Positions 15,588 to 62,394 of a DNA stretch of 64,000 nucleotides are shown in pieces. A program made the translations under genes and the position numbers. Position 1 is the stretch's first letter. Each line of letters opens with the position of its first letter. A model generated the notes under the pieces. The model had not been told where the DNA came from. It made no database searches and saw only the letters and a program-made list of their open reading frames with translations. Source of the DNA: an uncultured Microbacteriaceae bacterium. Its GTDB lineage: Bacteria > Actinomycetota > Actinomycetes > Actinomycetales > Microbacteriaceae. The stretch covers positions 1-64,000 of the forward strand of contig CAIOLM010000013.1 of assembly GCA_903859205.1 (NCBI GenBank), given 5' to 3'.

Positions 15588-16349
15588 TCACGAGCAACGC
15601 AGCTCGTTGTACACGCGACGCCACGATGTCAGACGATTTTCGTCAATCGTTGTGTCGGGGCCATTGACCCAGCCGGCAACCGAGCGGATGCCGTGCAGAG
15701 CGTTGACCGCCCACACTTCGGTGTTGGCCAATTGCTCGGGGGTAACTGCCTCACTGGAAACCGAAACCCCCAGTGTGCTGGCAATGTCGCGCAGCACCGA
15801 AACGGTGACGCTGTCGACACGGGCTAGCTCCGCCGGCGGCACGAAAAGGCTGCTCTCGCGCCACCACATCAGACACGTTGTCGCACCATCGACGACAAAA
15901 CCTTCAGGGCTCACAATGACGGCTTCGGTTGCGCCGGCTTCACGTGCCTGGCTGCGCAACTCTTCAAGCGCGGCAATGTCGGGGCCCTTGATGGAAGGTT
16001 CGGTACGAGGATCTTGTGATGCACTCCAGAGAATCACCGATTCGGTGCGCTCGGGCGCAGGGCGCAGGGCCAGCTGCAGCTCGCCTCGCACAGTGAGCTC
16101 AAGGCGAGGAAACCATTCGCCGGTAGTGGGAAGAGCCGCTCGGACGGCCGCCACAAAGTCGTCGACGGGGCGAACCAGGCCCTGGGCATCCGCACTTGCG
16201 GCAAAACGGGCAAAGTGCCGATCGAGGGCAACAGTGGTGCCATCGACGGTTAGCCATGAGTCGGCGACAAACAGTGCGAGGTCAGAATCAATCTCAAGCG
16301 GAGCCAAAGCGGTGCCGTTGAAGCGGTACCGTCCGGGCTCAAGACTCAT
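15588..16349 (-). CDS. pabC: Class IV aminotransferase, probable aminodeoxychorismate lyase
   Basis: A 253-residue PLP enzyme of the class IV aminotransferase fold (ADC lyase, branched-chain or D-amino-acid transaminases). Evidence is the LDRHFARFAASADAQGL segment, a likely PLP lysine in PSIKGPDIAALEELR and the C-terminal LGVSVSSEAVTPEQLANTEVWAVNALHG. Divergent pairing with pabB argues for 4-amino-4-deoxychorismate lyase, which yields p-aminobenzoate for folate. The start is ATG 16349; the frame is open much further upstream but would run into pabB. A minus-strand TAGCCT ends 7 bases before the ATG, suggesting a leaderless message. Confidence 0.78.
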   Translation of the reverse strand: MSLEPGRYRFNGTALAPLEIDSDLALFVADSWLTVDGTTVALDRHFARFAASADAQGLVRPVDDFVAAVRAALPTTGEWFPRLELTVRGELQLALRPAPERTESVILWSASQDPRTEPSIKGPDIAALEELRSQAREAGATEAVIVSPEGFVVDGATTCLMWWRESSLFVPPAELARVDSVTVSVLRDIASTLGVSVSSEAVTPEQLANTEVWAVNALHGIRSVAGWVNGPDTTIDENRLTSWRRVYNELRCS

Positions 16350-16355
16350 GCTCCC

Positions 16356-16362
16356 TAGGCTA
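16356..16362. promoter_or_regulatory. Overlapping divergent -10 elements for pabC-like gene and pabB
   Basis: TAGGCTA reads as TAGGCT on the plus strand (16356-16361) and TAGCCT on the minus strand (16362-16357). Each ends 6-7 bases before a start codon (GTG 16368 plus; ATG 16349 minus). One heptamer in an 18-bp gap could thus drive two leaderless transcripts in opposite directions. Confidence 0.55.
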
Positions 16363-16367
16363 GTACC

Positions 16368-17681
16368 GTGACACAGCCCGTAACCCGTGACTTCCTGCCC
16401 GAGTGGGTTGAGCCCTCTGCTGTGCACGCGGCACTTTTTGACCAGCACCCCAACGTGGTGTGGCTGGATGCCGGACCTCACGCCACCGAAGGCTATTCCT
16501 ACCTCGCGCTCGGTACTCACGAACTCGTTCACGGCAACGATCTCGACGTGCTGCGCTCGCGCGTTCCTGCTCCCGCCCGACACCCGGATGCCCCGCAGAC
16601 AGGCTCCGGGCCGTTCAATCTCGGTTATGTGGGATGGCTCGGCTACGAGCTCGGTTCTCACACCACTGGTGTTGCCCTTACGCCCGGGGGGCATCCCTCC
16701 ATTTCACTGGTCGAGGTGCGGGCGGCATTGGAATTTGATCACGCCAACGGCACAGTTTCGCTGCTGAGCGCCGGCAAACGCGAGGCGAACGCCCTGAATG
16801 CGGCATTGGGCGACTTGGCCGCTCGACCGCAAGCGAAACCTGCGGCTGCACTGAACAGTGCGCCGGTGTGGCGACACAGTGACCACACCTACCGCGAGAT
16901 GGTTCAAGCCTGCCGGGCAGCCATTTTGCGCGGGGACGCCTACCAGTTGTGCTTGACCAATGAAATACGGGTAGAGGGGCAGTGGAGCCCGCTCGCGGTG
17001 TATGAGCGGTTACGCCATGACAACCCCAGCCATCACGGCGCCATGCTGAGCCTGGGCGGTGTTCACCTGTTGAGCTCATCGCCTGAGGTGTTCTTGCGGC
17101 TGAGCCCCACCGGACGACTGTCGACAATGCCCATCAAGGGAACCCGCGCTCGCGGTGCTACGCCGGCAGAAGACGCCGCGCTCGCCGAAGAACTGCTGAG
17201 CAGCCACAAGGAGCAGGCCGAAAACCTCATGATTGTTGACCTCATGCGCAATGATCTTTCGCGGGTTGGTGAACTCGGCACGGTTGCGGCTGAAAACCTG
17301 CTCGAGGTGCAGACGTTGCCCCACGTGCATCAACTGGTCAGCACTGTCTCGACGCAGCTGCGGCCCGGGCTGAGTGCCGTGGATGCCCTTGCCGCGACTT
17401 TTCCCGCAGGCTCCATGACGGGCGCACCCAAGATTGCAGCGATGGGCATCCTCGCTCAACTCGAGGGCGGCCCCCGAGGAATCTATTCCGGCGCGTTTGG
17501 CTGGTTCGGGTACGACGGTGCCTGCGAGCTTGCGATGGTGATTCGGTCGATTGTGATCGACGCTGGTGGCGCATCCATTGGAACCGGCGGGGGAATCACG
17601 ATTGACAGCGACCCCCAAGCCGAACTCGAGGAAGCCCAGCTCAAGGCGCAGGCTGCTCTGCGTGCACTTGGCCTCGCCTGA
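16368..17681 (+). CDS. pabB: Aminodeoxychorismate synthase component I
   Basis: Converts chorismate with ammonia or glutamine to aminodeoxychorismate on the way to p-aminobenzoate and folate. The 437-residue protein has the chorismate-binding domain with [28 protein letters not shown] (Pro255 to about Gly263) and [15 protein letters not shown], with its lysine, is characteristic of PabB; anthranilate synthase TrpE has PIAGT. The glutamine amidotransferase partner is not in the window. GTG 16368 is preceded by TAGGCT at leaderless spacing. The neighbouring pabC-like gene completes the branch. Confidence 0.9.
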
Positions 17682-43517: not shown

Positions 43518-44081
43518 TTACCCGTCGAGGTCATCGACGCCAGGCATCCATGACAGCCCCGGCTTGCCCCAGCCATTCGTCTTTCTCGCTTTTTCAGCTT
43601 GCTTGGCCTCGGCGTGCGCCAAGCGGTCGACGTAAAGCAAGCCATTGAGATGGTCGAACTCGTGCTGCATGATGCGAGCAAACCATCCTTCACACTCGAT
43701 TTCAAACGCGGCACCGTTCTCGTCGTGGGCTCGAAGGATCGCCTTGTCGGCTCGAATGAGCGGGAATCTCTCGCCTGGAAAAGACAGGCAACCTTCGTCA
43801 TCTGCCTCGGTGGGTTCACTCACCGGAGTGGGGGAGATGAACAGTTCGGGGTTCACGGCAACGCCGCGTCGGGCGGTGCCATCGTCGGCTGGATAGTCAT
43901 AAACGAAGACACGAAGCGGCACGCCAATTTGAGGGGCGGCAAGGCCAACGCCGGGAGCCTCATCCATCGTTTCGTACATGTCGGCTATGAGTTTTCTCAG
44001 CTCAGCGTCGAACGAGGTGACGGGCGTGGCTGGTGAGTGCAAAACTGGGTCGCCGGAGATGACGATAGGGCGTACGGTCAT
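43518..44081 (-). CDS. def: Peptide deformylase
   Basis: Iron or zinc hydrolase that removes the formyl group from new proteins. The 187 residues contain the three family motifs: GVGLAAPQIG (44-53), EGCLSFPG with metal ligand Cys98, and QHEFDHLNG with His140, catalytic Glu141 and His144. The C-terminal tail has KKxGW-like KTNGWGKPGLSWMPG. Start ATG 44081; a minus-strand TAGGCT lies 6 bases upstream, suggesting a leaderless mRNA. It converges on tRNA-Asn. Confidence 0.95.
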   Translation of the reverse strand: MTVRPIVISGDPVLHSPATPVTSFDAELRKLIADMYETMDEAPGVGLAAPQIGVPLRVFVYDYPADDGTARRGVAVNPELFISPTPVSEPTEADDEGCLSFPGERFPLIRADKAILRAHDENGAAFEIECEGWFARIMQHEFDHLNGLLYVDRLAHAEAKQAEKARKTNGWGKPGLSWMPGVDDLDG

Positions 44082-44087
44082 GCTTTA

Positions 44088-44093
44088 AGCCTA
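44088..44093 (-). promoter_or_regulatory. -10 element for a leaderless def transcript
   Basis: TAGGCT on the minus strand, 6 bases before the def ATG; no Shine-Dalgarno sequence is visible. Confidence 0.45.
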
Positions 44094-44129
44094 CGGCGTG
44101 GGTAACTGTGCATCGTTCGTATGTGCGGA

Positions 44130-44135
44130 TAGAGT
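44130..44135 (+). promoter_or_regulatory. -10 element for a leaderless DMT-transporter transcript
   Basis: TAGAGT is followed by 7 bases and ATG 44143. The def promoter points the other way from the same gap. Confidence 0.45.
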
Positions 44136-44142
44136 CGAAAGC

Positions 44143-45102
44143 ATGCTGACTGCCGGGGTCCTCGCTGCCGCTACGGTTCAATTCGATCCGTCGCAGTTGA
44201 TTGGTATCCCGTTCGCACTCGTTGGCGCGGTATTCATGTCCGTTGGGGCGCAGCTGCAGCACTCTGGTGTGGGCAAGGTTGACAGTGACACCCAGTCCGA
44301 CGGAAAGTCGGCTCTCAATGTCAAACAGCTGTTTGCGCTGCTCTCAAGGCCCTCCTGGCTATTCGGCACCGTCATGCTTGGTTTGGCCGTGGTCTTCCAG
44401 CTTGTGAGCCTCGGCTATTCGCCGATTATCGTGGTGCAGCCTATTGGCGCTGTTGCCCTCGTGTTGACTGCCATCATCAACTCGCGCGTGAGCAAGGTCA
44501 AGCTCAACCGGGCCAGCATCATTGCGATCAGTATGTGTGTTGGCGGTATCGCGCTCTTCGTCACTGTCGCAGCCTTTACCGCAGTTAACGCGCCCGTTCT
44601 GCCTGAAGACCTTGTGCAAATCTTGATCATCCTCGGTTTCATCATGCTGATTTTTGCGGTCTTGCACATGATTCTGCGTCACCGTCCGAGTGCGCTCTTC
44701 TACATTCTTGGTGCAGGTGTTCTGTACGGGTTTGTGGCTACGCTCGCCAAGGTGGTTGAGGCTCGGCTCTTCTCTAATCACATGGACGCACTGCTCTGGA
44801 TGGCATTGGCTGCGCTGCTAATCGCCGCGGTCATCGGTGGGCTTTTTGTGCAGAATGCCTATTCTTCCGGTCCGCCAGACTTGGTCATCGCTGGTCTCAC
44901 GGTCATCGATCCTCTCGTGGCTGTCTGCATCGGTATCGTCATCCTGGACGAGGCTCAGAACGCTCCAGGCTGGGCCATTTTCGTCTACATTCTGGCCGGT
45001 GCTATCGCCGTTGCTGGCGTTTTCCTCATGGCTCGCGTGCACCCGCAGTCGACAGGGGAAACAGGGGAAGTTCCTCGTTTGTCGAACCCTGTTATCAAGT
45101 AG
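44143..45102 (+). CDS. DMT-family (NIPA-like) membrane transporter
   Basis: A 319-residue integral membrane protein with about nine hydrophobic segments. The pattern IGIPFALVGAVFMSVGAQLQH, the repeated-half layout and VVQPIGAVALVLTAIINSRVSK resemble the drug/metabolite (EamA/NIPA) superfamily, here in a form common in Microbacteriaceae. The substrate is unknown; Mg2+ or small organic compounds are possible. The start is ATG 44143, with a TAGAGT -10 at leaderless spacing. A GT4 gene follows after 64 bases, with its own ribosome-binding site. Confidence 0.75.
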   Translation: MLTAGVLAAATVQFDPSQLIGIPFALVGAVFMSVGAQLQHSGVGKVDSDTQSDGKSALNVKQLFALLSRPSWLFGTVMLGLAVVFQLVSLGYSPIIVVQPIGAVALVLTAIINSRVSKVKLNRASIIAISMCVGGIALFVTVAAFTAVNAPVLPEDLVQILIILGFIMLIFAVLHMILRHRPSALFYILGAGVLYGFVATLAKVVEARLFSNHMDALLWMALAALLIAAVIGGLFVQNAYSSGPPDLVIAGLTVIDPLVAVCIGIVILDEAQNAPGWAIFVYILAGAIAVAGVFLMARVHPQSTGETGEVPRLSNPVIK

Positions 45103-61320: not shown

Positions 61321-62196
61321 CTACTCCTCGTCCGAAATGGTCAGAATCCTGGCACCAGTGGCGGTGGCCACAATCGTGTGTTCAAACTGCGCGGTGATGG
61401 AGCGATCCTTTGTCACGACAGTCCAGTTGTCAGACCACATATCCCACTCGTGCGTTCCGAGCGTGAGCATTGGTTCGATGGTGAATACCATGCCCTCTTC
61501 AATGACGTTGTTGTAGAGCGGGGCTGAGTCGTAGTGGGGGATGATCAGGCCCGAGTGAAAGTGAGTTCCGACGCCGTGGCCAGTGAAGTCACGAACGACT
61601 CCGTATCCGAATCGCTTGGCGTAGGCCTCGATGGTGCGGCCAATCACGTTCACTTCGCGGCCCGGCATGACCGCCTTGATGCCGCGAGCGAGAGCTTCGC
61701 GGGTTCGCTCGACCAGGTCGGTGATTTCCTGAGACGTCGAGCCCACGATGAAAGTGCGGTTGGTGTCTCCGTGCACTCCGTGAAGGTACGCGGTGATGTC
61801 AACGTTGACGATGTCGCCATCTTCGAGAACAGTGTCATCGGGGATTCCGTGACAGATGACCTCATTGAGCGAGGTGCACAGCGACTTCGGGTAGTTGCGG
61901 TATCCCAGGGTTGACGGGTACGCCCCGGCCGCGACGACGAATTTGTGTCCGATAGCGTCGAGTTCGTCTGTGGTCACTCCCGGGCGAATCGCGGCGCCGA
62001 CGGCGTCAAGTGCCCGACTAGCTATGCGCCCAGCATTGCGAATCTTGGTGATTGTGGCGCTGTCGTAAATGTCGTTTCCGGCATAGGTTGCCGGGGCGGC
62101 TTTGCCCACGTATTCCGGGCGAGCAATGTTCAGCGGCACGGTGCGCTGGGGACTCAGCTTTCCGGCAACGAGGTGACCAGCTGAATCCTTAGGCAT
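61321..62196 (-). CDS. map: Methionine aminopeptidase, type I
   Basis: Removes initiator methionine. The 291-residue protein has the pita-bread fold metal ligands: [22 protein letters not shown] and HGDTNRTF (two Asp), [11 protein letters not shown] (His) and MVFTIEPML (Glu), with a last Glu near the C terminus. A roughly 40-residue N-terminal extension, common in actinobacterial MAPs, may bind the ribosome. Start ATG 62196; minus-strand TAAACT 7 bases upstream suggests a leaderless mRNA. ppgK follows. Confidence 0.95.
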
Positions 62197-62209
62197 ACAC
62201 TCAAGTTTA
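62196..62209. promoter_or_regulatory. Interlocked divergent promoters for map and the SPOR-like gene
   Basis: Between the two start codons lie only 12 bases. TACACT (62196-62201, plus) ends 7 bases before ATG 62209; TAAACT (minus, 62209-62204) ends 7 bases before the map ATG at 62196. Each -10 includes the first base of the other gene's start codon. Both transcripts would be leaderless. Confidence 0.5.
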
Positions 62210-62394
62210 TGTCCTCAGCTTCGACCGAAAAGTATTGGTACAACCTCAAGACCGGTGCGGTGGAAAAGGGCATGGTCAGTCCGGGAGTCGATCGCGTTGG
62301 TCCGTTTGAGACAGAAGGCGAGGCTTCGAACGCACTTAACCTTCTTCGAGAGCGTTCAGCCGCCTGGGACGAAGACGAGCGCGAGAGCGATTAG
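62209..62394 (+). CDS. Small SPOR-domain-like protein
   Basis: A 61-residue protein typical of actinobacteria: [34 protein letters not shown] and [16 protein letters not shown]. Such proteins are annotated as SPOR-related, but they are only about 60 residues long and have no signal peptide here; no function is established. It converges on panB with a 2-base gap and is divergent from map. Confidence 0.8.

Follow-up and report, generated by a model that had tools for sequence, protein, structure and literature searches.

Two genes that diverge from a gap of 18 bp raise the question of how both can be transcribed and translated from so small a space, and whether a single -10 element can serve the two strands. 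The locus considered here lies in the window, that is, the whole stretch of 64,000 nucleotides that was analysed, which belongs to an uncultured Microbacteriaceae bacterium known from a draft genome (1.70 Mb, 44 contigs, 95.7% complete) and whose relatives were found mainly among the Microbacteriaceae. A sequence-only reading of the window had proposed that the heptamer TAGGCTA is a bidirectional leaderless promoter, providing a -10 to each of two genes of p-aminobenzoate synthesis.

The two genes and the gap

Among the 25 models listed for the plus-strand product, the best was TIGR00553 (pabB), with 325.5 bits, just short of its cut-off of 328.4; judged from its sequence, the gene encodes a PabB/TrpE-type enzyme. 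The product of the minus-strand gene stayed far under every NCBIfam PabC cut-off, and the only family to which it can be assigned is that of the class IV aminotransferases (PF01063). From its context, this PF01063-fold enzyme is likely PabC, since the genome yielded no more than two PF01063 matches and residues K121 and R48 were invariant in 85/85 aligned aminotransferase rows. PabB and PabC catalyse, in this order, successive steps of p-aminobenzoate synthesis. The earlier proposal that the pair acts in successive steps was thus sound as to the pathway order, whereas the PabC-like character of the aminotransferase gene is attributed from context.

Table 1. Genes and putative promoter elements at the divergent locus (positions in the window).
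Feature	Position	Strand	Remarks
Class IV aminotransferase gene, probable PabC (aminodeoxychorismate lyase), 253 aa	15588..16349	-	ATG at 16349; PF01063 91.7 bits, cut-off 28.5
Intergenic gap, 18 bp	16350..16367	.	Sequence GCTCCCTAGGCTAGTACC; read as core of the predicted bidirectional leaderless promoter
-10 hexamer TAGGCT for pabB	16356..16361	+	6 nt 5' of GTG; genome spacing peak 6-7 nt
Self-complementary TANNNTA heptamer, TAGGCTA	16356..16362	.	Common to both -10 hexamers
-10 hexamer TAGCCT for the aminotransferase gene	16357..16362	-	7 nt 5' of ATG; at the spacing peak; kept in relatives
pabB-like gene (chorismate-binding enzyme), 437 aa	16368..17681	+	GTG taken as +1; PF00425 289.7 bits

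The description of the gap itself proved correct, with TAGGCTA legible as a -10 on both strands and a TANNNT hexamer standing 6 and 7 nt before the respective start codons (Table 1); counted from the heptamer, the flanks measure 5 and 6 nt. The minus-strand ATG appears as CAT at 16347-16349 and the plus-strand GTG occupies 16368-16370, each being preceded by a C on its own strand. If ATG 16349 and GTG 16368 were both +1, the opposite-strand starts would be 19 bp apart. Inspection of the window sequence by eye revealed no TTGACA-like hexamer 16-18 nt 5' of either -10. The gap is identical in the genus mate (locus L003), and 15/18 bases are the same in L004 and L011. An AGGGAG motif is present on the minus strand at 16351-16356, one base before the ATG, which is too near the start codon for a usual Shine-Dalgarno (SD) sequence; this motif is absent in L004 and its position falls outside the range of the SD-like test described below.

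Conservation of the divergent pair in Microbacteriaceae

A PabB search of 299 family genomes gave a match in 227 of them at E <= 1e-80. The 110 genomes then examined form a non-random sample, composed of 3 of the genus, 27 further top-scoring loci and 80 hand-picked to spread across genera. The divergent aminotransferase/pabB pair was found in 85 of them (38 genera), while no upstream aminotransferase homologue was detected in the other 25 of the 110. Both starts carried TANNNT at 6-7 nt in 64/85 loci (27 genera), a count that has to be read bearing in mind that family genomes are not independent of one another. The gaps of these double-positive loci measured 11 bp in 41 (e.g., the marine actinobacterium PHSC20C1, L023, and Galbitalea, L034), 12 bp in 5, 17 bp in 11 (e.g., Aurantimicrobium, L012 and L015, and Leifsonia, L033 and L040) and 18 bp in 7 (e.g., Agreia, L020). 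The remaining 21 loci, which are devoid of one or both leaderless -10s, had a gap larger than 40 bp (14 loci), one -10 (6) or none (1).

These gap sizes correspond to two layouts. In the wide layout (gap 17-18, 18 genomes), one heptamer is shared as in the window, whereas in the narrow layout (gap 11-12, 46 genomes) the -10s are interleaved, the first T of each one pairing with the A of the opposite ATG; there is no overlap between the two hexamers, yet both keep 6-7 nt to their own starts. In all 41 gap-11 loci both genes start with ATG, which this layout requires, and in all 11 gap-17 loci both start with GTG. When the offsets allowing double duty for opposed TANNNT hexamers at spacing 6-7 were worked out, they corresponded to gaps of 17 (6/6), 18 (6/7) and 19 (7/7), a 22-24 series, and gaps of 6-7 and 11-12, the last two placing -10 bases inside the opposite start codons. 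The 64 loci occupy only gaps 11, 12, 17 and 18, where two bases do double duty, either as shared -10 bases (gap 17/18) or as -10 bases in start codons (gap 11/12).

Conservation of the exact heptamer had been suggested as a test of the promoter; it was dropped, since most relatives have the interleaved layout instead. TAGGCTA is a local form, being replaced in 46 of the 64 positive genomes, and what is kept across the family is the predicted two-way leaderless initiation. The idea of a bidirectional leaderless promoter therefore holds, from sequence and conservation, as regards one -10 region serving two opposed leaderless genes, but not as regards a heptamer common to the family.

An aminotransferase tree of 84 rows (one wide locus of the 85 was left out as too short) required 2 changes for the wide label, 8 for the narrow label and 9 for all three labels jointly, although several weak or long branches make the number of layout switches uncertain. 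A broader view, for and against which we see the case as evenly balanced, is that Microbacteriaceae keep start-codon-embedded bidirectional promoters by selection. The narrow-layout starts would lie 12 bp apart, with the T at -12 pairing opposite the +1 A, so that one melted stretch would serve both genes, and the pab pair would have moved between the two forms. In such a scenario the selected trait would be expression from a single melting event and no particular sequence, because two-way initiation would have persisted through the changes of form.

The 21 loci outside the 64 include 15 rows with a leaderless -10 for pabB. Nine of these 15, from six genera, keep TANNNTA with the aminotransferase start further away, and the other six have no TANNNTA; as background, an A follows leaderless TANNNT in 16/102, 6/56 and 5/50 cases in three genomes. 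Two of the loci (L133 and L134) keep TACGCTA for pabB, and their aminotransferase start is about 24 bp more distant than that of the window. In L133 (genome G204), AGGAG stands 5 nt before the ATG of the aminotransferase gene, which for this reason seems to have exchanged a leaderless start for an SD-led one. These cases suggest that two-way initiation may outlast the leaderlessness of one partner, with the six of 15 rows devoid of the heptamer counting against it.

Recurrence of the design

The frequency of such starts was surveyed in 648 kb, or 38%, of this genome. Among 140 divergent first genes, TANNNT preceded candidate starts at spacing 6 in 30 cases and at spacing 7 in 16, with 0-5 cases at each of the other spacings up to 24, whereas the control ATNNNT gave 2 and 0 at spacings 6 and 7. 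This profile was obtained with a first version of the gene caller, which missed the aminotransferase gene owing to an over-long ORF; gene pairs were counted with the corrected caller. With the latter, 45/142 first genes showed a leaderless -10 and no SD-like motif of the set listed, and leaderless starts are, as predicted in this way, ordinary in this genome. Divergent pairs with both leaderless -10s numbered 9/71 in this genome and, in stretches of two others, 6/38 (G060) and 1/52 (G081), while five control motifs gave 0-2 divergent pairs. Since 9/71 pairs have both -10s against 0-2 for the controls, the putative promoter design recurs in this genome, the pab pair being an example of it with deep conservation.

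The narrow pattern was found 34 times in 60 family genomes, compared with 9 times for the reversed pattern and 8 for an A/T-swapped one, the pab pair itself accounting for 14 of the 34 hits (11 matched by coordinates and 3 by tblastn). No clear enrichment was found outside the family, since 118 phylum genomes gave 55 hits versus 45 for the reversed pattern, counts that are dominated by AT-rich genomes.

Other divergent pairs were noted along the way. The window holds a second narrow promoter candidate in the 12-bp gap 62197-62208, which separates a methionine aminopeptidase gene (61321-62196, minus strand, PF00557) from a gene for a 61-aa protein (plus strand, 62209 to 62394); both starts are ATG, and TACACT and TAAACT each lie 7 nt from a start. 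Apparently the same two gene types, as read from the translations, display a gap-11 layout in another genome (G011, L284). A further divergent pair of the window (44081-44143) has both leaderless -10s, which are taken as separate promoters because the gap is 61 bp. Divergent leaderless pairs with a gap of 23 and a TA common to both -10s occur in L232 (1851-1875) and L242 (17776-17800), and are likely the counterpart of the published 23-bp class of bidirectional promoters. Narrow-layout pairs were also seen in genome G059 (L287, near 1259), between upp (assigned by Pfam) and a gene that from its translation we take to be tadA-like, as well as in two genera (L281 near 1270 and L288 near 1264), where one gene type, presumably a thioredoxin-domain protein, is combined with different partners.

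Alternative explanations

The near self-complementarity of TANNNT means that only one hexamer might be an active -10, the other match being its by-product and the second gene being transcribed from a more upstream start within the opposite gene. A bare TANNNT is indeed short, in the three genomes mentioned the base after a leaderless TANNNT is an A about 10-16% of the time, and some relatives have a single leaderless -10. Nevertheless, the second hexamer of the narrow layout (46 genomes) cannot derive from the symmetry of the first because the two do not overlap, both being still 6-7 nt from their starts. In addition, listed SD-like motifs are absent for both genes. Searched from -18 to -5, such 5-mers were found in 0/128 starts of the 64 loci, compared with 89/392 following genes of this genome; within this set the window pair is also free of SD motifs, with the reservation that a single base separates AGGGAG from the minus ATG. 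We therefore consider that explanation unlikely.

It could also be argued that the heptamer is bound by a repressor or activator, its resemblance to a -10 being secondary, since CTAGGCTAG is a near-perfect palindrome that several genera of the wide group have in unchanged form. However, it is the fixed letters of TANNNT, at the distance typical of leaderless starts, that the layouts have in common, while the inner letters vary, the narrow layout has no such palindrome, and the same design occurs at unrelated divergent pairs of this genome, which together leave an operator a very improbable origin of the conservation.

A fortuitous juxtaposition in a densely packed genome, to which the commonness of leaderless TANNNT starts (45/142 first genes) might lend some credit, can be set aside as having a negligible probability given the 64/85 loci in 27 genera that keep both -10s and the 9/71 divergent pairs against 0-2 for control motifs. 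When the same search was run with all 64 xyNNNz shapes, TANNNT was retrieved in 64/85 loci, followed by ATNNNC (19) and CTNNNC (7), with a median of 0. Shuffling the gap letters in the 64 loci preserved both -10s in a mean of 0.23/64 and a maximum of 2 loci (200 shuffles). As these loci had been selected by the motif, fairer tests were of two kinds, one being the above comparison of shapes. In the other, a motif-blind choice of starts, which took the two opposed ATG/GTG starts closest to each other (up to 120 bp) in each of the 85 loci, both -10s were present in 44/45 loci with gap 11-12, 17/18 with gap 17-18 and 0/22 others, 3 of the latter having no start pair up to 120 bp. The twin putative -10 arrangement is not due to chance, because relatives keep both elements in 64/85 loci versus 19 for the next-best shape.

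Proposed mechanism

The gap is thus, very probably, a bidirectional promoter of small size that depends on the housekeeping sigma factor and would yield two leaderless mRNAs. Since TANNNTA reads as a TANNNT -10 on each strand, RNA polymerase could bind in either orientation, melting the shared element and starting at, or within a base of, A 16349 (minus strand) or G 16368 (plus strand), with the predicted starts, one on each strand, separated by about 19 bp. Ribosomes would begin on the first codon of both messages because neither would have a 5' leader. Oppositely oriented polymerases would be unable to hold the site simultaneously, and a promoter with no recognisable -35 would be expected to have low activity. 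The outcome would be mostly a coupled, low expression of two successive p-aminobenzoate enzymes rather than a switch. Of the elements of this account, the sequence with its conservation and spacings, the lack of SD-like motifs as defined above and the layouts found across the family are observed, whereas the transcription starts, the sigma factor, the leaderless translation, the PabC identity and any regulatory effect are ones that we infer.

Comparison with known systems

The founding paper on bacterial bidirectional promoters is reportedly that of Warman et al. 2021. In the parts of a later study by Warman et al. 2026 (PMC12825309) and of a Salmonella plasmid study (PMC10268837) considered here, such promoters are described as having a symmetric -10 with transcription start sites (TSSs) 18 bp apart, the common TSS distances being 10, 18 and 23 bp within a definition range of 7-25 bp. 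According to the former, the bidirectional promoters most often seen in E. coli have a shared -10 and two TSSs separated by 18 bp; basal bidirectional promoters are there too weak for polymerase competition, and activation of one side represses the other. The earlier reading had suggested that a shared -10 could make the output of the two pab genes balanced or mutually exclusive; the weakness of the basal E. coli promoters argues against strong competition at basal activity. While a pair of divergent leaderless mRNAs with fully shared -10 bases had been regarded as striking, a shared -10 is not so by itself, since it characterizes the commonest E. coli class (PMC12825309).

As in the bidirectional promoters so described, the pab gap has a near-symmetric -10 legible from both strands between functionally linked divergent genes. 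The expected TSS pair is 19 bp here and 18 bp in the gap-17 relatives, the latter distance matching the commonest published class. The pab case differs from those promoters in that both RNAs are predicted to be leaderless, which would make the start codons part of the promoter, and the 12-bp TSS distance of the narrow layout, although within 7-25 bp, is not among the distances of 10, 18 and 23.

In actinobacteria, RNAs that start at an ATG or GTG with TANNNT a few bases upstream, and with no conserved -35, are reported in the portions of PMC3898074, PMC3160421 and PMC4633059 taken into account. In the first of these, Cortes et al. describe closely juxtaposed divergent promoters and the divergent prpD and its regulator, both leaderless. 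The pab genes share the TANNNT just before ATG/GTG and the lack of a conserved -35, but differ from the leaderless genes there described in having one -10 common to two of them and, in the narrow layout, a -10 overlapping the opposite start codon. No paper combining leaderless and bidirectional promoters was found in a literature search whose coverage left out most subscription journals; the presence of both features in one element, its family-wide persistence and the narrow, start-codon-embedded layout are apparently new with respect to the literature searched.

If transcription confirms it, the smallest divergent control region here would span about 11-18 bp and have its promoter, start sites and start codons interlocked, with little room left for regulators. 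The locus offers, on one gene pair, a range of natural layouts (gaps 11, 12, 17 and 18, and one-sided derivatives), useful for the study of polymerase competition, expression coupling and the evolution of leaderless versus SD-led starts. Overall, the pab case is consistent with a bidirectional promoter of the kind published for bacteria, combined here with the leaderless genes of actinobacteria.
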